A DNA stretch of 20,218 bases, from positions 1 to 20,218 of IMG/VR virus record IMGVR_UViG_3300011113_000008. One strand, given 5' to 3'. The notes under the pieces were generated by a model. It saw nothing but the letters and a program-made list of their open reading frames with translations. It ran no database searches and had not been told where the DNA came from. Below, piece by piece: positions 2,786-20,218 of this stretch. Positions within the stretch are counted from its first letter, which is position 1; each line of letters starts with the position of its first letter. The DNA is from a virus. The position numbers were made by a program, and so were the translations under genes.

Positions 2786-3445
2786 ATGAAAAGCGGAATT
2801 TATCACATCAAGAATACTGTGAGTAACGGCATCTATTTTGGAAGGTCTGTTGATGTTCCAGATAGATTGTCGCACCACAGACAACAATTAAGGCGTGGTG
2901 TTCATGTTAACAAGCGTTTGCAACATTCATGGAATAAACATGGTGAGCAAGTATTTGAATTCAAAATGGTTTGGGAAGAAACTCAAGATAAGCTAGAAGA
3001 ACTTGAAGGTTTTATTCTTGAGGAAGTATGGGGCAATGAGAGATTGTTTAACCATCACAAACTATCTGCTGGTGGATTCTTGCCAAACAATAAACTAGGT
3101 TGTTTTACAAGGTCAGAAGAAACTAAAAAGAAAATGAGTGTTGCCTTTAAGGGCCGTGAGTTTTCTGAACAACATAAGCAAAAGATTGCAGTAGGTAAAA
3201 CTGGTTTAAAAGCTAGTGATGAAACCAAAAAGAAAATGTCAGATAAAAGGATTGGTAAAGCAAGACCTCAATCATGGCATGACAAGATGGCTGAATATAG
3301 GGAAAACAACCCAAACCCTATGCAAGGCAAGATTAGCCCCATGAGAGGAAAGAAGTTCCCTACTATTGCTTGTGAGCATTGTGGTAAGGAAGCCTCAAAA
3401 GGAAATTACTTACGCTGGCATGGAAATAATTGTAGGAGCAAATAA
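2786..3445 (+). CDS. GIY-YIG homing endonuclease with NUMOD3 repeats and zinc finger
   Basis: Second predicted homing endonuclease, 219 residues. The nuclease domain (1-95) has GIY at 4-6, IYFG at 16-19 in place of YIG, R27, and E74 in the helix LEELEGFIL. HKLSAGGFLPN closes the domain. Residues 108-157 hold two NUMOD3-type repeats (SEETKKKMSVAFKG and SDETKKKMSDKRIG with a linking SEQHKQKIAVGKTG), which bind DNA along the minor groove in related enzymes. The C-terminus has C196-x2-C199-x12-H212-x3-C216. This finger has the same spacing as, and is clearly related in sequence to, the one in the endonuclease at 205-798, although the nuclease domains differ. The gene begins two bases after the fibre stop and its TAA overlaps the next ATG (TAATG). 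Confidence 0.9.
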   Translation: MKSGIYHIKNTVSNGIYFGRSVDVPDRLSHHRQQLRRGVHVNKRLQHSWNKHGEQVFEFKMVWEETQDKLEELEGFILEEVWGNERLFNHHKLSAGGFLPNNKLGCFTRSEETKKKMSVAFKGREFSEQHKQKIAVGKTGLKASDETKKKMSDKRIGKARPQSWHDKMAEYRENNPNPMQGKISPMRGKKFPTIACEHCGKEASKGNYLRWHGNNCRSK

Positions 3446-13622: not shown

Positions 13623-13823
13623 TTAAAAGGGGATTTGATCCCATTCCCAATGCTCACACTCAACTATGCCAGTGATCCACTCTAGCGGCGGCTTTGCTCC
13701 ATATTGTTGACAGATGCCTGTCTCAAAATTGTTACACTGGCGGCAATTGACTTGGATGGTGTTAATCTGTTTGACTTGACTGTCCAAATGCCTTTTGATA
13801 GCGCTTAGTTCAATAAAATTCAT
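13623..13823 (-). CDS. Small Cys-rich protein, 66 aa, probable metal binder
   Basis: The N-terminal 20 residues are helical (MNFIELSAIKRHLDSQVKQI). The remainder carries C27-x2-C30-x7-C38 and C56-x-H58, enough ligands for one zinc ion or possibly an iron-sulfur site. The end EHWEWDQIPF is a pattern I associate with small phage proteins near recombination genes, but I cannot give a function. The start lies inside the end of the helicase gene (14-base overlap) and GAGG upstream supports it. A nucleic-acid or protein-binding accessory role for the helicase is possible. Confidence 0.68.
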   Translation of the reverse strand: MNFIELSAIKRHLDSQVKQINTIQVNCRQCNNFETGICQQYGAKPPLEWITGIVECEHWEWDQIPF

Positions 13824-15420
13824 ATTCTTTTACCTCAGTATATTTTCCATTTTTACGGGTCAAAATCCTGTCTGGTTCTTTGATTTTATGCAAAACAGTC
13901 CATGTAAATGCCTCTTGTGTGCCTGATGGCATAGACTTCTTTTCCCTTCGCATCCACCAGTTTTCGGCCTTTTGCCGAGCGTAGCCAACGTGACTGAAGC
14001 AAATCCACTCACTTGCGACCATCAGTAAGCCAGCGTAATAGTCCACTCTTAATGAATCAGGCTTGCCTTCTTTGCGGTGGATGGCATAGGCAACCCTACT
14101 CACATCATGCCAAACAAAATTATCTACACTCGCCCGACTTGACAAGAGCGCTGCCAATGAAACCTTGGCATCAAGTGGTTTGGCTTCTTCTTCTCGGATT
14201 TGACCACCACAATGAATGCAAATAAGAGCTGCGGGTGCGTTGCGCTCACCGCAGTTAGGGCAGATGCAGAAGGGCGCTTCCTGAGTGCCTGACCTCTTCT
14301 TAGCCCTGCCTTGGATGGTATCGACTGGCCCCAAGCGCTCAACTGTGTCGGTAAAGTCAAGCACCAGGCAGTCAGTCTTGCCATCTGCAATTCGAGTGCC
14401 TCGGCCCATCCCTTGTACATAAAGCACTGGCGACCTCGTGGGCCTACACCAAATAATGCAGTCAACGTCTGGCACATCAAAGCCAACCGACAAAGCCAAA
14501 ACAGTGACCAAACAGTGAATTTGACCATTTCTAAATTGAGCAATCAAGTCTTCACGCTCTTGTTTGGGGGTTTCGCCGCAAACCACCGCGCTGACAATGC
14601 CTCGATAATTTAAGCGATCTGCAAGGCTTTCAGCGTTTTTGACACTCGGTGTAAAGGCGATCCATTTCTTACGCTCTGAGGCGATTCTGGTAGCTTCTGC
14701 GGCTACTTTGGATAGGTATTTTTCAACCTCACGGGAAAGTTCGCCAACCTTATAGTCTCCATTGGCTATCCCAACGTGGCTGGCATCGATGCGGGTTTCA
14801 ATCCGGTCTGGTGGAACCAGTGGTGCAATGAACTTGGCATCAAGCAATTCACGCATGGAGACTCGGCTTGCAATGCCTGTGAACAATGGCTCATCCCCAT
14901 CAGTCAACCAAACACCATTACCTCTAAACGGCGTGGCGGTCATGCCAACAGTTCTGAACTCGCAAAGTTGGCTAAGGTCAAACAGAAACGATCTGAACAT
15001 TCCAGTTTGATCCCCCTTCTGGCTCACCAGATGAGCCTCATCAATGACCACGGCCTTGATGTTTCCCAAGAGTTGAGCATCCCTGTGGATGCTGCCAATG
15101 GTGGCAACAATCACATCTGCTTGGTGCTGTTTCTTGCCCAAACTGGCGCTGACAAAGCCAACGCTGATGTTTGGGGGAAGCAAGGCCCTAAGTTTGGCAG
15201 CGTTCTGTTCTGCCAGTTCCTTGGATGGAACGAGCACCACAGTGCGAGGGTGAAACAGAGGCCATTGATCCCACATCTGGCGCACAATCTCAGCGCAGAT
15301 CACCGACTTGCCTGCGGCGGTGGGTAGCACCAACAGAGGAATGTCGGTGTTTTCTTGGTGCTTTGTCCACCATGCAAACAGGTCTGTGACTGCGCGGGAC
15401 TGATAGTCACGAAGGATCAA
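13810..15420 (-). CDS. Superfamily 2 DEAH-box DNA helicase with zinc ribbon
   Basis: A 536-residue ATP-dependent helicase. The Q-like start MILRDYQSRAV is followed by motif I PTAAGKS (33-39), motif Ia VLVPSKELAEQ, motif II DEAH (127-130), motif III TATP (161-164), motif IV-like WIAFTPSVKNAE (253-264), motif V LALSVGFDVPDVD and motif VI QGMGRGTR (336-343). A C4 zinc ribbon (C387, C390, C401, C404) interrupts the C-terminal part. The last 100 residues (SLRVDYYAGLLMVASEW, ARQKAENWW) form a domain that I have seen mainly in phage helicases. Genes upstream encode a nuclease, a DUF669 protein and a recombination ATPase, so it probably opens DNA or drives branch migration in replication and recombination. 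The start overlaps the previous gene by 14 bases. Confidence 0.92.
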   Translation of the reverse strand: MILRDYQSRAVTDLFAWWTKHQENTDIPLLVLPTAAGKSVICAEIVRQMWDQWPLFHPRTVVLVPSKELAEQNAAKLRALLPPNISVGFVSASLGKKQHQADVIVATIGSIHRDAQLLGNIKAVVIDEAHLVSQKGDQTGMFRSFLFDLSQLCEFRTVGMTATPFRGNGVWLTDGDEPLFTGIASRVSMRELLDAKFIAPLVPPDRIETRIDASHVGIANGDYKVGELSREVEKYLSKVAAEATRIASERKKWIAFTPSVKNAESLADRLNYRGIVSAVVCGETPKQEREDLIAQFRNGQIHCLVTVLALSVGFDVPDVDCIIWCRPTRSPVLYVQGMGRGTRIADGKTDCLVLDFTDTVERLGPVDTIQGRAKKRSGTQEAPFCICPNCGERNAPAALICIHCGGQIREEEAKPLDAKVSLAALLSSRASVDNFVWHDVSRVAYAIHRKEGKPDSLRVDYYAGLLMVASEWICFSHVGYARQKAENWWMRREKKSMPSGTQEAFTWTVLHKIKEPDRILTRKNGKYTEVKEYEFY

Positions 15421-15598
15421 ACTCGCGCTCCTTGATCATTGCATCTGCAATTTTATATGCCCTTTCTGCAATCTTTGAAGGCTCATGCCACCAGCTATAG
15501 CTCATATTATCTTGCGTTCCTTGTTCGAGATCGCCAGCAAGAGCTTGCCCTGCAAAAAAGTCACGCAATGTCATGTTGTTAATTGATGGTGTTTTCAT
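15407..15598 (-). CDS. Small protein, 63 aa, between nuclease and helicase
   Basis: The start MKTPSINNMTLRDFFAGQAL and the end AYKIADAMIKEREFDPS form two helices separated by a Gln/Trp-containing linker (DNMSYSWWHEP). The MTLRD-x-F-A core and a closing A-x-AMI-x-ERE helix are a pattern I recognise from many short phage proteins of unknown function. It overlaps the nuclease stop by four bases (ATGA) and its end overlaps the helicase start by 14 bases, so translation is coupled on both sides. It may be an adaptor for one of these enzymes, judged by position only. Confidence 0.72.
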   Translation of the reverse strand: MKTPSINNMTLRDFFAGQALAGDLEQGTQDNMSYSWWHEPSKIAERAYKIADAMIKEREFDPS

Positions 15599-16683
15599 AC
15601 GAACCTCGCATTGTGTTGTTTACGCAGGCCCAGAGCAAACTCGTCCACCAAGGCGGTCTTGTCTGTGCAGGCATGGATTTCTGCGCTACTGATGTGGTCA
15701 AAGTTTTTGTCTGGGTCGCCGTTCACAAACTGTTTGCCATCTGCCATTTTGTAGATCACATTGTCATTTTGATCAAGGTCAACTGGATGGGCTGTCTTAG
15801 CAAGCAAGATGGGGATGTAGCGGTGATCATTGCAACCTTTTCGTTGCATTCCTTCTGACAAAACTGTGCTATGTGAAGCGCATGACCAAACTGCATTGCC
15901 ACCCAATTCAGGCGTGGCGTGAACGCATGAACGGCACGTTGGCATAGGGACATCTGTGCCGTGGCAAATAGCCTGGTAGTCGCAGAACTTGCACTCAAAC
16001 CAAGTTGGATCGGTAGACACTCCAACTGGCGGCTCGGGCGCGGTAATCACCGCCATTGCCTTGGCGACAATCTCCTGTGCCTCATCCTTGTTAAATTCTA
16101 TGCGCTCGGTGTAGATGTCATCATTGTCTTTGTTCACGACAAAGTAAAGCGCACGTTTACACCCATCTTCTCCAAACTCATCAATTGACCATTTCATGTA
16201 TATTTGCATCTGTGCGTAATGCTCTGGCTTGGCCTTCTTTACGCCATTTTTTTGCATATCTTTAAACATCTTGTCAGATGCGGTCTTGATCTCCAACAAG
16301 TGCGGAGACTTTGGCGCTTGCGGTAGGCCCGTGACAATGCCGTCCGCATTGCCTTGGAAATGATGGCCTGTGGTCGCTTCGGTGAATGACCACTGGCGGC
16401 CTGTGGCGGGGTTGAGTTGGTAGACAGTGCAGCCAATGCTTGCCAAGTCTGCATAAACTCTAGGTTCCTGCAAGTGACCAGACTGAAACACTCGGTAAAG
16501 CCTGCCAGAGAACTCGGCAGGCTTTGACCACCGGAAAGAGTACCAATGCTGGCGCAGGCAAGGCTTACCAATGCTTGATGCACCAAGGTAAGGTCTTTGT
16601 GCTTCTGAGCCATACTTTGCCTTGTAATGGGCAAAGATGGCATCAGCCACAGGATCAACAACTGATTGTGGAAGCAAGGCCAT
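15595..16683 (-). CDS. Cas4/RecB-like PD-(D/E)XK nuclease with probable Fe-S cluster
   Basis: A 362-residue nuclease. The PD-(D/E)XK core shows GNADG (D114), LLEIKT (E131, K133) and the helix HYAQMQIYM with a conserved Gln. A likely E73 lies in the first helix (SGHLQEPRVY). C42 in GKPCLRQ, together with C231-x2-C234-x5-C240, reproduces the split four-Cys pattern that holds a 4Fe-4S cluster in Cas4 and AddB. A second C4 set follows (C250-x2-C253-x14-C268-x15-C284) and may bind zinc. The start is ATG 16683, with AAGGAAAGG just upstream and one base after the DUF669 stop. A longer frame to 16833 only overlaps that gene. It probably resects DNA ends for the AAA_24 ATPase, like lambda exonuclease for Beta. 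Confidence 0.88.
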   Translation of the reverse strand: MALLPQSVVDPVADAIFAHYKAKYGSEAQRPYLGASSIGKPCLRQHWYSFRWSKPAEFSGRLYRVFQSGHLQEPRVYADLASIGCTVYQLNPATGRQWSFTEATTGHHFQGNADGIVTGLPQAPKSPHLLEIKTASDKMFKDMQKNGVKKAKPEHYAQMQIYMKWSIDEFGEDGCKRALYFVVNKDNDDIYTERIEFNKDEAQEIVAKAMAVITAPEPPVGVSTDPTWFECKFCDYQAICHGTDVPMPTCRSCVHATPELGGNAVWSCASHSTVLSEGMQRKGCNDHRYIPILLAKTAHPVDLDQNDNVIYKMADGKQFVNGDPDKNFDHISSAEIHACTDKTALVDEFALGLRKQHNARFV

Positions 16684-16684
16684 G

Positions 16685-17212
16685 TCAGCCTTTCCTTGCC
16701 CATGCGGGTGCTTTGGACTTGGCGGCCTCTTGCTCGGCGGTAGGCCATGCAACTGTGTCTGCCATCGTAGGCATAGGCGTTGGTGCAGTAGCTGGTGCAA
16801 CTGGTGCGCTGATGCCACCGCCTGCGGCCTCATAGCCCTTGATGTTGTTGCTTGCTTTGTAAATGCCTTGGGCCTCGCGCACAGTCACGTTGATGCGAAC
16901 TGGCTTGAAGTGCAGGGCGGCAGTGTCCATCAACTTGATCACGTTCACGGCATGGCAAAGCGCAGACAACTGGCTTTGGGCAATGCGTTGAGTATCTTCG
17001 TTGGCGTGACGGATGTTCAAGTTCTCCCAAACCTTGCGGCCTTTGTATTGTCCATCGAGGATTTCAAAGGTAAGTTTCAAGCCTTCGCCATTGCCAGACT
17101 TCAAAGGCTGCACATCAGATTCGGTGATGTGAGCCAAATAAGTTCCGGCAGGCAGTGGGCCTGTGGACTGTTGGGGAGCGACTTGGGATGCGTCAAAATT
17201 AAACTGAGCCAT
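16685..17212 (-). CDS. DUF669 protein, probable ssDNA-binding protein
   Basis: A 175-residue protein. Residues about 18-125 match DUF669 (PF05037) as I know it: LPAGTYLAHITESDVQPLKS, GEGLKLTFEILDGQYKGRKV, WENLNIRHANEDTQRIAQSQ and FKPVRINVTV. DUF669 genes sit beside recombinases and helicases in many phages and are thought to bind single-stranded DNA. The C-terminal 45 residues are Ala/Pro-rich and low complexity and end AWARKG, without the acidic tip of bacterial SSB. AGGAAA upstream supports the ATG. It lies 39 bases after the AAA_24 gene and one base before the nuclease start, which fits joint action on resected DNA. Confidence 0.85.
   Translation of the reverse strand: MAQFNFDASQVAPQQSTGPLPAGTYLAHITESDVQPLKSGNGEGLKLTFEILDGQYKGRKVWENLNIRHANEDTQRIAQSQLSALCHAVNVIKLMDTAALHFKPVRINVTVREAQGIYKASNNIKGYEAAGGGISAPVAPATAPTPMPTMADTVAWPTAEQEAAKSKAPAWARKG
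16689..16697 (-). promoter_or_regulatory. Ribosome binding site that fixes the nuclease start
   Basis: On the - strand AAGGAAAGG ends five bases before ATG 16683. It decides for this start over the longer frame that opens at 16833 inside the DUF669 gene. Confidence 0.72.
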
Positions 17213-17251
17213 GATAAATTTCCTAAAAAGTTAAGTTACGAACTGGGGTGA

Positions 17252-17998
17252 TCAAGACTGCGCTTGTGTAAGCGCTGCTTGGAATGCCGTCCAGTCAAGC
17301 GGCATATTTTGAAGGCCAAAGCGGTTGCCACCGCAATGAGCCGGATGAGGTTCAACGTGCAAGATGCGCTCGCCAGTTGTCGTGGCCTTGGTTTCTTTCT
17401 TAGAGAAACCTGCGTCTGTCTTGCTTGTAAAAATGCGGTAGCCTGCGTAGCCAATGACATCTGCCCACTCTTGCACTAGGCCAGCGGCTTTGTCGTGCAG
17501 TTTAAGGACATGGCTGTCATAGCCCTCGGTCAACGGGTCTTCTATGCGCTTGATCTTGTCGTGGGCAATCAGGATGATGCCCATGCCCTTGGCTGAACGC
17601 AGGACTTCTAGGCCAGACAACAGGTTACGCCATTCCTCGGCGGCGGCAACGTAGCCCTTGCCGAAGCCTGGTGCTTCAATGTTCTTCCAATTGTTCTGCT
17701 TGCACACATACTCTTGGATCATGGGTTCGAGCCAATCCAGACTGTCAATGAACAAGGTCTGGAAGTCATGCTTTTGGTTGATCAGCGTGTCGATGGCGGC
17801 ATAAACCTCGGGCAGGCTGGCAGCCAATGGGAAGGCGTTTGCGTCCACCGCATCAGCGCCGTCTTCAGTCAGGATGCCAATGGCGTTGGGAGCCATAGCC
17901 GCGAAAGTGGTCTTGCCAATCTTGCCTTGGCCCACCACCACAATCTTGGGTGAGCGTACACGTTTGGTTTTGGAGATGGATGATAGGTCGAATGCCAT
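17252..17998 (-). CDS. AAA_24 / Sak4-like recombination ATPase
   Basis: A 248-residue RecA-fold ATPase. Walker A is G23-QGKI-G28-K29-T30 and Walker B is TLFIDSLDWL with D85. MGIILIAHDKIKRIEDP (about 139-155) resembles the strand and sensor region after Walker B. It lacks the extra domains of full RecA. Proteins of this kind (PF13479) include the Sak4 group of phage single-strand annealing or recombination proteins, which work with an SSB and an exonuclease. Here the next two genes are DUF669 and a Cas4-like nuclease, which supports that role. The gene is one base from its upstream neighbour and probably translated by coupling; only a weak GAAAG lies before the ATG. Confidence 0.88.
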   Translation of the reverse strand: MAFDLSSISKTKRVRSPKIVVVGQGKIGKTTFAAMAPNAIGILTEDGADAVDANAFPLAASLPEVYAAIDTLINQKHDFQTLFIDSLDWLEPMIQEYVCKQNNWKNIEAPGFGKGYVAAAEEWRNLLSGLEVLRSAKGMGIILIAHDKIKRIEDPLTEGYDSHVLKLHDKAAGLVQEWADVIGYAGYRIFTSKTDAGFSKKETKATTTGERILHVEPHPAHCGGNRFGLQNMPLDWTAFQAALTQAQS

Positions 17999-17999
17999 G

Positions 18000-18368
18000 T
18001 TAGTCTTTCAAGTCAATGGATGGTTTTGCGGGTTTGCTGGTGATGAACACTGCTGCCTTGTTGTAGGCAGAAGAGTCAATTTCGGAGAGGGATCGCAGAT
18101 AAGCCAAATTAACTTCTGCTTTCCAACGAAAGGCTTTTTGTGCATTGGTAGGCAGATCGTCATAGTCGGCGGCTAGGCGGTCGGTATCTACTGCTCGGGT
18201 CAGTTTCCAAGTGATGGTGAAGTCTTCATCTTGGTGTGTGCCTTCGCCATTCTCAGGCTTGGCAAATTGGTCGGTGATCAGGCTTTCAATGCGAAGGCGC
18301 TCGGCCTTGGCATCAGTCTCGGCTTGCTTGGCTTTGCGTAGTAAGGTTGCCAGTTCAGAGATCGTCAT
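18000..18368 (-). CDS. Hypothetical protein, 122 aa, in the recombination operon
   Basis: The frame can be opened at 18410, but ATG 18368 has GAGGA eight to ten bases upstream and overlaps the previous gene by only 14 bases, so it is chosen. Residues 1-35 are a charged helix with coiled-coil character (ELATLLRKAKQAETDAKAER). The rest has a strand TITWKLTRAVDTD, a helix-rich part LPTNAQKAFRWKAEV and an end VFITSKPAKPSIDLKD. I know similar proteins next to Sak4-type genes in phages but not their function. A structural or regulatory partner of the ATPase immediately downstream is possible. Confidence 0.72.
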   Translation of the reverse strand: MTISELATLLRKAKQAETDAKAERLRIESLITDQFAKPENGEGTHQDEDFTITWKLTRAVDTDRLAADYDDLPTNAQKAFRWKAEVNLAYLRSLSEIDSSAYNKAAVFITSKPAKPSIDLKD

Positions 18369-18630
18369 TTTTGTAGTCCTCAAGTGCTGTGGTTGTGATG
18401 TGGTCAACAAGGCCCTGCAAGATCAAGTGACCAATGTCTATGTCTGTGCCTTTGATGTAAGCGCTGACAAGTTCCATAGTTTCGGCGTAGTCAGGCTCAT
18501 CAGGTAAGCCACGGCTATCGAGTGAGCCAATTTCTTCTGGGATGTACTCCAAGTGGCAGACCAAATCGACACCTTCGAGTTCGCACTCAAACTCAATGAT
18601 TCCTTGGGGGCAGGCGGGTGTGGGGTTCAT
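18355..18630 (-). CDS. Strongly acidic protein, 91 aa
   Basis: By my count 21 of 91 residues are Asp or Glu against three Lys/Arg, so the net charge is near -18. The N-terminal half is beta-prone with alternating residues (IIEFECELEGVDLVCHLEYI). Then come PEEIGSLDSRGLPDEPDYAE and a helical end GHLILQGLVDHI with EDYKNDDL. Cys at 7, 16 and 25. GGAGAG lies before the ATG, and the start overlaps the stop of the 37-residue gene by ATGA. I recognise the layout from small phage proteins of unknown function. The charge would fit a DNA mimic or a binder of basic proteins, but that is speculation. Confidence 0.72.
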   Translation of the reverse strand: MNPTPACPQGIIEFECELEGVDLVCHLEYIPEEIGSLDSRGLPDEPDYAETMELVSAYIKGTDIDIGHLILQGLVDHITTTALEDYKNDDL

Positions 18631-18916: not shown

Positions 18917-19297
18917 TTAGGCTGCGGCTTTCTCAGCAAATAAGCGTGTGGCTTCTGTGCCCTGATCAACGTAAGAGTCAGAACCATAAGCAGGATCAAT
19001 TTCGTACCAAAAAGATGGTGATAATGTTTTACCAGCTTTGAGAGAAGCGTTGACGCGAATAGCCAACTTGCTGGCTTTAGCTTTCGCTTGATCGCGCATA
19101 TCGGGAAAATAAGAATCGCCAGACTCAGGGCAAACAACTTCTTGAGTGCCATTAAAAGTGGCTTGATGACGGAAGCGGCGACCGGCTTCGTTTTCAATCA
19201 CAACGTAATACTGTTCGGCGATGAAGGGCTGACCATCGCATGAAAAACCGGCGTTGTATAAATCGCTCCATGGATAAGCTGTGTAAGTTGTGTTCAT
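18917..19297 (-). CDS. Hypothetical protein, 126 aa, first gene of the leftward operon
   Basis: A 126-residue protein, probably cytoplasmic. It starts MNTTYTAYPWSDLYNAGFSC and has a beta-rich part (AEQYYVVIENEAGRRFRHQA). Then come YFPDMRDQAKAKASKLAIRV, and an acidic, aromatic end (SFWYEIDPAYGSDSYVDQGT) with an Ala-rich tip. AAGGAAA lies nine bases before the ATG. It is the first gene after the leftward promoter, so it should be made early and in quantity. I have seen similar proteins in phage early regions but know no function. It could act on the host during takeover, by position only. A strong hairpin follows its stop. Confidence 0.75.
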   Translation of the reverse strand: MNTTYTAYPWSDLYNAGFSCDGQPFIAEQYYVVIENEAGRRFRHQATFNGTQEVVCPESGDSYFPDMRDQAKAKASKLAIRVNASLKAGKTLSPSFWYEIDPAYGSDSYVDQGTEATRLFAEKAAA

Positions 19298-19362
19298 TTT
19301 GTGTTTCCTTTATGGCCTTTCGGCGTGATGGACAGAGAACCAATTTCCCTGCCACGCTTTGA

Positions 19363-19390
19363 ATTCTAGCGAGTTGCTAGATGTTGTCAA
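19363..19390 (-). promoter_or_regulatory. Leftward sigma70-type promoter for the early operon
   Basis: Read on the - strand: -35 TTGACA (19390-19385, perfect consensus), a 16-base spacer, -10 TAGAAT (19368-19363, five of six). Transcription would start near 19356, about 60 bases before the ATG of the first operon gene. GCTAGA copies cover its -10 box and lie in its spacer, so a bound repressor would block it. Confidence 0.75.
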
Positions 19391-19411
19391 GCCCTTTGCT
19401 AGAATTATTTT
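19384..19411 (+). promoter_or_regulatory. Possible rightward promoter for the HTH-primase pair
   Basis: TTGTCA (19384-19389, five of six), 16 bases, TATTTT (19406-19411, four of six). Its -35 box overlaps that of the leftward promoter almost exactly because TTGTCAA is near-palindromic. An alternative is an extended -10 TGCTAGAAT at 19397-19405 without a good -35. Either way a GCTAGA copy lies in the promoter. The choice between them is not settled. Confidence 0.5.
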
Positions 19412-19416
19412 CATAG

Positions 19417-19686
19417 GTGTTTTCCCTATTGCCAAAAGAATCTATCAATGTGCTAGAGTGGATAGCTATGAACACACAAATACCACCAGATGAGCGCCGA
19501 CAACTGGCAGAAAAAGTTGGCATCAATGAGCAGTACCTTTACCAATGTCTCACTGGCAGGCGAGAAATGTCAGCTTGGGAGGCCGTTCGGGTAGAACAGG
19601 CCAGTGAGGGCAGGCTTACTCGGCAGATGGTGTGCCAGGGCAGTTGGCAGTCTATTTGGCCAGAACTTGTGGAGGCCAAAGCATGA
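19417..19686 (+). CDS. YdaS/Cro-like helix-turn-helix transcriptional regulator
   Basis: A small DNA-binding protein, up to 89 residues from GTG 19417. The HTH is DERRQLAEKVGINEQYLYQC followed by LTGRREMSAWEAVRVEQASE, then LTRQMVCQGSWQSIWPEL. The pattern L-A-x-x-x-G-x-x-x-x-Y-L, T-G-R-R, A-V-x-x-E-x-A-S and a closing W-P-E-L is that of the YdaS/Cro group. The start is uncertain: ATG 19468 would remove VLEWIAMNTQ, whose helix seems to belong to the family, while GTG 19417 lies almost at the predicted transcription start. TTG 19429 or GTG 19450 are alternatives. The stop overlaps the primase ATG (ATGA). It probably controls the divergent promoters, as its gene lies beside repeated operator-like sites. 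Confidence 0.82.
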   Translation: MFSLLPKESINVLEWIAMNTQIPPDERRQLAEKVGINEQYLYQCLTGRREMSAWEAVRVEQASEGRLTRQMVCQGSWQSIWPELVEAKA

Positions 19687-20218
19687 GCAGTCTTACATCT
19701 ATTTTCCCCAACGGCTTCGCAGCTGCCACAGAATCGCAAGACCTAATCAACCCTGAAGAGGGGTTCAGGAAGCACTGTGAGGCATCTGGCCTGCTGATCA
19801 AGGAGATCATCGCAGATGGTGAGATTCACAGGGTGGCTCATGTGTCGAGCAAGAAGGGTGCGCTTGATGGTTGGTACATCTTGCACTCCAGTGGCAAAGT
19901 GCCTGTGGGCATTGCAGGCTGTTGGAAGGAGCCAGTGTTTGAGAGTAAATGGATAGCAGACACTGGCAGGCAAATGTCTTTTACTGAGCGCTTTGAGCAT
20001 GACAAGTGGTTGGTAGAGGTGAAAGCCAAGAAGGATGCTGACAGGTTGGCATCGCAGGCGGTGGCTGCCGAACGTGCAGAGGATGAGGTAGTGACGTATG
20101 CAGATGCGTCTGACGATCATCCTTACCTTGTCAGGAAGCACGTTGGGGCGCATGGGATCAAGATTGACAGGGCAGGCAGGCTGGTTGTGCCTGTGATCAA
20201 TCAAGCAGGGGAAATTCT
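19683..20218 (+). CDS. Toprim-type DNA primase/helicase, N-terminal part (runs off window)
   Basis: An open frame of 178 codons with no stop before the right edge. GGAGG at 19671-19675, seven bases before ATG 19683, and the ATGA overlap with the HTH gene fix the start. Residues about 25-115 form an N-terminal domain with KHCEASGLLIKEIIADGEIH and GALDGWYILHSSGKVPVGIA, then a charged helix (115-135). The end HPYLVRKHVGAHGIKIDRAG and RLVVPVINQAGEI is the stretch that precedes the Toprim domain in phage and plasmid TraC-like primases. The Toprim active-site residues and any helicase domain lie outside the window. It would make RNA primers for phage replication and is read rightward under control of the HTH switch. 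Confidence 0.85.
   Translation, partial: MSSLTSIFPNGFAAATESQDLINPEEGFRKHCEASGLLIKEIIADGEIHRVAHVSSKKGALDGWYILHSSGKVPVGIAGCWKEPVFESKWIADTGRQMSFTERFEHDKWLVEVKAKKDADRLASQAVAAERAEDEVVTYADASDDHPYLVRKHVGAHGIKIDRAGRLVVPVINQAGEI

Follow-up and report, generated by a model that had tools for sequence, protein, structure and literature searches.

We found that the window, a 20,218-base viral record analysed over its whole length, carries three 17-bp dyads on two divergent promoters upstream of a gene for a YdaS-type Cro repressor, and that this arrangement is probably a Cro-only, collapsed form of a lambda-type immunity region in which Cro would repress both early operons. This reading draws on the dyads themselves, on how they are conserved and coincide with promoter boxes, on the O_L and O_R counterparts seen in prophages, and on searches of long relatives in which neither CI nor a tyrosine integrase was found.

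In the proposed mechanism, both promoters would fire upon infection, with P_L driving recombination and replication genes and P_R making cro and the primase. As Cro accumulates, its dimers would bind the three dyads (TCTAGC-N5-GCTAGA), two of them (O1 and O2) on the −10 and −35 boxes of P_L and the third (O3) on the extended −10 box of P_R, thereby occluding both promoters and bringing early transcription down in a self-limiting manner. The outcome would be a delayed negative feedback on early genes, such as lambda Cro exerts in the lytic cycle, without the lysogenic branch. O_L/P_L would here adjoin O_R1/P_R without an intervening cI segment, making the region a Cro-only remnant whose cI would have been lost from a temperate ancestor rather than never having been present. 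The features concerned are as follows.

13810..18630, minus strand: rest of the leftward operon under P_L (helicase, Cas4-like exonuclease, SSB-like DUF669 protein, Sak4-like annealing protein, two small genes)
18917..19297, minus strand: first leftward-operon gene, 126 aa, weak PHROG 1507 match
19363..19390, minus strand: P_L, predicted leftward early promoter, TTGACA (19390-19385), N16, TAGAAT (19368-19363)
19365..19381, no strand: putative operator O1 (O_L1 equivalent), TCTAGCgagttGCTAGA, perfect 17-bp dyad
19387..19403, no strand: putative operator O2 (O_L2 equivalent), TCAAGCcctttGCTAGA, one mismatch to the dyad
19414..19428, plus strand: TAGGTGyTTTCCCTA, conserved 15-bp element, 12 bp upstream of O3
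19441..19457, no strand: putative operator O3 (O_R1 equivalent), TCTATCaatgtGCTAGA, one mismatch to the dyad
19451..19459, plus strand: P_R, extended −10 box TGCTAGAGT, predicted start 19465-19468
19468..19686, plus strand: cro, 72-aa YdaS-type Cro repressor, recognition helix at residues 21-28
19683..20216, plus strand: primase(-helicase) gene, PHROG 2249 DNA primase; its start overlaps the cro stop and it runs off the record

A Cro repressor gene and its upstream dyads

The cro product belongs to the YdaS-type Cro proteins because of its profile match to 8co2/8c7k, the Cro/YdaS of prophage CP-933P (E 2-3e-13), and because its AlphaFold model (pLDDT 83.5), which places the recognition helix as listed, found YdaS as its best Foldseek match, followed by other Cro and CI domains; this is despite a score of 25.7 bits against Pfam YdaS PF15943, below the curated cut-off of 30. 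It also matches PHROG 35, transcriptional repressor, and no close relative differs from it in the recognition helix. An alternative GTG start at 19417 was discarded, as the conserved protein begins at the ATG at 19468.

The homologous Cro of solved structure comes from the CP-933P immunity region of E. coli O157:H7 (PaaR2, YdaS, YdaT; PMC8630535; PDB 8c7k, 8co2), where YdaS is a Cro analogue with footprints over two divergent promoters carrying repeated palindromes. The window likewise has repeated dyads over cro's own promoter and the divergent one, and a cro gene beside a replication gene. Unlike the window, CP-933P encodes analogues of CI (PaaR2) and CII (YdaT), and it has 18-bp palindromes with the half-site consensus GTTTAGTAA and a P_L located away from P_R.

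GCTAGA occurs at 19365-19370 on the minus strand and at 19376-19381, 19398-19403 and 19452-19457 on the plus strand, giving the core spacings of 11, 22 and 54 bp that the initial annotation had recorded. Its total in the whole 20,218-base window is unremarkable (9 copies vs. 7.4 expected); none of 200 simulated windows had four copies inside 92 bp. Individually the copies are half-sites, and the unit is the 17-bp dyad TCTAGC-N5-GCTAGA, of which the record holds three at up to one mismatch, all in this region, vs. 0.035 expected. The same annotation had pointed to a 9-bp inverted repeat (19362-19370 and 19398-19406); this exists in the window but is not supported as the functional unit, since its outer bases are not conserved and the units are the three dyads.

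The leftward promoter proposed at the outset was recovered as TTGACA-N16-TAGAAT, with 11 of 12 consensus matches. The left half of O1 forms its −10 box. Its −35 box, whose TTGAC is retained in about 91% of distinct relatives, overlaps O2 in the left half as read on the minus strand (GCTTGACA), and this overlap would account for the single base at which that half departs from consensus. The leftward operon's leader (19326-19364, around GAGAACCAATTTCCCTGCCACG) is also conserved, though the first gene varies between subgroups.

Overlapping −35 boxes for two divergent promoters had originally been put forward, but the TTGTCA that overlaps the −35 box of P_L lies only 10 bp from the rightward TAGAAT at 19400, so the two do not share a −35 region. 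For this reason, and because its final −10 base varies among relatives, a rightward promoter at O2 (TGCTAGAAT, 19397-19405) was rejected as the main one. The invariant rightward feature is TGCTAGA(G/C)T at O3, present in 66 of 66 distinct relatives, where the right half of the dyad is the extended −10 box of P_R; no −35 hexamer was found at 16-18 bp from it. Because the T of the TG motif is inside the O3 spacer and the final T of the −10 box is outside the dyad, both look as if they were kept for polymerase. With 10-11 nt between the end of O3 and the cro ATG, the predicted transcription start would fall on or beside the ATG, leaving a cro mRNA that is leaderless or nearly so. An RNA hairpin in the cro leader was separately considered and dismissed, with 19404-19470 folding no better than shuffles (z = −0.05).

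That some GCTAGA copies are −10 boxes, as the initial annotation had suggested by way of a competing reading, is true of the left half of O1 and the right half of O3, alongside their role as putative operator halves. A stricter version, in which all copies are only −10 boxes (TGnTAGAAT) and their repetition reflects polymerase recognition with no operator, can claim the P_L −10 box in O1 and the invariant extended −10 box in O3. We find it scarcely credible: the right half of O1, both halves of O2 and the left half of O3 could not serve as −10 boxes but are nevertheless conserved, the spacer always being 5 bp, and the same dyads occur in prophage O_R and O_L.

Conservation across IMG/VR relatives

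A scan of IMG/VR with the 72-aa HTH protein adjoining the dyads gave 80 relatives, 75 of which carry exactly three dyads (0-2 mismatches) at most 160 bp upstream of the HTH gene; among the other five, two are truncated where the contig stops, and in three, one of the sites was too weak to be scored. No further dyad at 0-1 mismatch was found elsewhere in any of the 80 loci (435 kb scanned). The sites are thus kept in essentially all relatives with the same HTH gene, which was the check proposed for a CTAG-core operator array tied to a YdaS/Cro-like gene over divergent promoters, and the idea survived it. When distinct upstream regions are compared, hardly any half-site position changes, whereas the O1 spacer and the outer bases of the O2 spacer vary freely, a pattern that is the footprint of putative protein-binding sites and not of plain relatedness.

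Spacing between the dyads is also constrained. O1 and O2 lie 22 bp apart in 59 cases and 21 bp in 7, and nine different distances separate O2 from O3, ranging from 52 to 74 bp and mostly close to an integral number of helical turns. The clustering of distinct O2-O3 values at helical turns has a simulated P of 0.005, with values that are not independent, and helical phasing of O2 and O3 is suggestive only. Of the phasing of all copies near one face of the helix claimed earlier, the constant O1-O2 distance and this O2-O3 tendency stand, but the 11-bp spacing drops out, being the two halves of one dyad (O1).

In some window-type phages, another operator, the fourth and a perfect one, lies about 5.5 kb leftward (L136 at 276, L157 at 602, L161 at 479, L168 at 228; L095 at 10160), over a promoter-like TGCTAGAAT before the next leftward gene; the window has no fourth operator at this position.

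The 15-bp element TAGGTGyTTTCCCTA sits exactly 12 bp upstream of O3 in 65/65 relatives that have it. Because its distance to O3 is fixed and that to O2 varies, it is probably part of P_R, and it is perhaps a site for an activator of this promoter. It is missing in 5 of 70 relatives, four of which have palindromes in its place (e.g., AAACCCTTAAGGGTTT). No second copy was found at other promoters at 0-1 mismatch in any window-type locus, leaving a single copy per record. In one prophage (L128, 4585-4599), a version with one mismatch lies 13 bp from O_L, inverted relative to cro.

Prophage counterparts and the search for CI

Bacterial relatives of the Cro protein, at 44-65% identity, are found in Polaromonas, Acidovorax, Rhodoferax, Azohydromonas and Paucibacter. 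Most of the Burkholderiales prophage relatives have dyads of the same type near −72, −48 and −26 of cro (O_R), between cro and a divergent gene in the CI position; this gene encodes an S24 repressor in L088, and diverse proteins without a recognised S24 domain in several other prophages. Beyond the CI-position gene, 1.3-4.2 kb to the left, lies a second dyad pair (O_L) with members 22-23 bp apart, present in L087, L125/L129 (one genome), L127, L128, L131 and L133, and in L089 as a pair with a variant half-site common to its own O_R. For instance, the O_L pair of L087 (ATTCTAGCaccacGCTAGActatgTCAAGCacaaaGCTAGA) comes with a leftward TTGACA-N16-TAGAAT, in the same layout as window 19363-19403.

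Because these prophages have the same dyads, spacing and promoter layout, O1/O2/P_L are the counterpart of O_L, and O3/P_R that of O_R1. Prophages of this Comamonadaceae/Burkholderiales set (L087, L088/L129, L089, L131, L133, L127, L128) share with the window the 22-bp pair with a TTGAC −35 box inside the second operator, and the −10 box just before the cro ATG. Unlike the window, which keeps one half of such a switch, these prophages retain it in full: a CI-position gene separates O_L from O_R, O_R has up to three operators, and P_R includes a −35 box but no TAGGTGyTTTCCCTA. Within the window group, the O_L and O_R1 counterparts are adjacent to each other, with no cI segment, O_R2 or O_R3.

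More distant relatives bear on what binds the dyads. L089 has its variant half-site in O_L and O_R alike. In L132 and L187, whose recognition helix begins with different residues, only TAGC-N5-GCTA is retained, and Enterobacteria phage mEp043 (JQ182734), which has the closest Cro relative among deposited phages (38% identity, opposite a CI gene), combines a quite different recognition helix with TTTACC-N4-GGTAAA operators; unlike the window, it is temperate, with CI and CII. Operators thus appear to track the cro gene and to change with the Cro sequence, a covariation seen in a handful of distant cases, and since the sites also adjoin cro, we take Cro as their putative binder. They might alternatively serve mainly another regulator (a resident-prophage CI or a host factor), with the nearby Cro not binding; prophages of the likely hosts do have matching operators, so their CI could bind, but sites that always adjoin the cro start and change with Cro in distant relatives make this very improbable. 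Within prophage L087, the CI-position protein (2412-2921, SEEYIYQLVEGK) and Cro (3001-3240, NEQYLYQCLTGR) resemble each other in their recognition-helix segments, which would be expected of two proteins reading a common operator, and the first gene under its P_L (1-311) encodes an AntA/AntB-type antirepressor.

The initial annotation had envisaged a compact two-way genetic switch, and this part was not borne out, as a CI partner was not found. As in a lambda-type immunity region, cro is accompanied by putative operators over both P_L and P_R, but no CI gene was found divergent from cro in records that may be incomplete, and one operator (O3) rather than three lies at the cro promoter. Searches of ten relatives of 35-39 kb, whose records are probably incomplete and could hide a diverged CI or integrase, returned no S24 protein and no integration function of the tyrosine integrase type (PF00589). 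Six prophage CI-position proteins had no match in any window-type record. A 39-kb relative has genes for a terminase, a P22-like portal, a primase-helicase and recombination; none of its scanned genes codes for a second regulator. Finally, the 126-aa product of the gene divergent to cro gave no repressor match in any search and is not HTH-like, and this gene differs between subgroups.

These results weigh on whether the phages are temperate and hold a complete lysis/lysogeny switch, with an unrecognised CI sharing the operators with Cro. The operators are of a type common to CI and Cro in prophage relatives, some CI-position proteins there are diverse and lack S24, and the records are not proven complete; against this, the searches for S24, PF00589 and CI-position proteins came back empty, the divergent gene does not look like a repressor gene, and O_R2 and O_R3 are missing. 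We therefore consider a complete switch unlikely, and a Cro-only region the probable reading.

Related systems and implications

Lambda O_L and O_R are 17-bp dyads over P_L and P_R, and Cro is the lytic repressor. The window resembles lambda in its 17-bp dyads over both promoters and its Cro; lambda differs in having three plus three operators, CI and CII, and kilobases between O_L and O_R. Cro-type operator arrays are textbook knowledge, and the protein family has a characterised member. Descriptions were not found for a conserved lineage with Cro in which O_L and O_R1 stand side by side and CI is missing, for this operator consensus, or for the P_R upstream element; the open-access literature yielded no paper on GCTAGA operators in phages and no described case of virulent phages keeping cro without CI. 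Lytic Streptococcus thermophilus phages with deleted lysogeny modules are an earlier example of the principle.

A Cro-only region would show what is left of a lambda-type switch without its lysogeny half. Selection would have maintained this remainder in dozens of freshwater phages, which argues that Cro repression of early genes may be valuable by itself in the lytic cycle. The operator consensus for Burkholderiales YdaS-type Cro could help to annotate prophage O_L and O_R, and it yields predictions as to which lysogens may have immunity against these phages. A more specific picture is possible but, taken as a whole, rather doubtful: a widespread CI-less lineage might have fused O_L and O_R1 into a compact Cro-only timer and replaced the −35 box of the cro promoter with the rigidly placed TAGGTGyTTTCCCTA, read by an activator, and the CI of a resident lysogen could shut these phages off as their operators match those of local prophages.

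Among described phages, DSL-LC05 and Rhodoferax phage P26218 have portals 80% and 42% identical, respectively, to that of a window relative; unlike the window, neither record reports a cro homologue. Elsewhere in the window, between tail-region genes, the two ORFs at 205-798 and 2786-3445 have by sequence the look of GIY-YIG/HNH-type homing endonucleases (YVYTLTDPRNGMPFYVGKG; GIYHIKNTVSNGIYFGRS).
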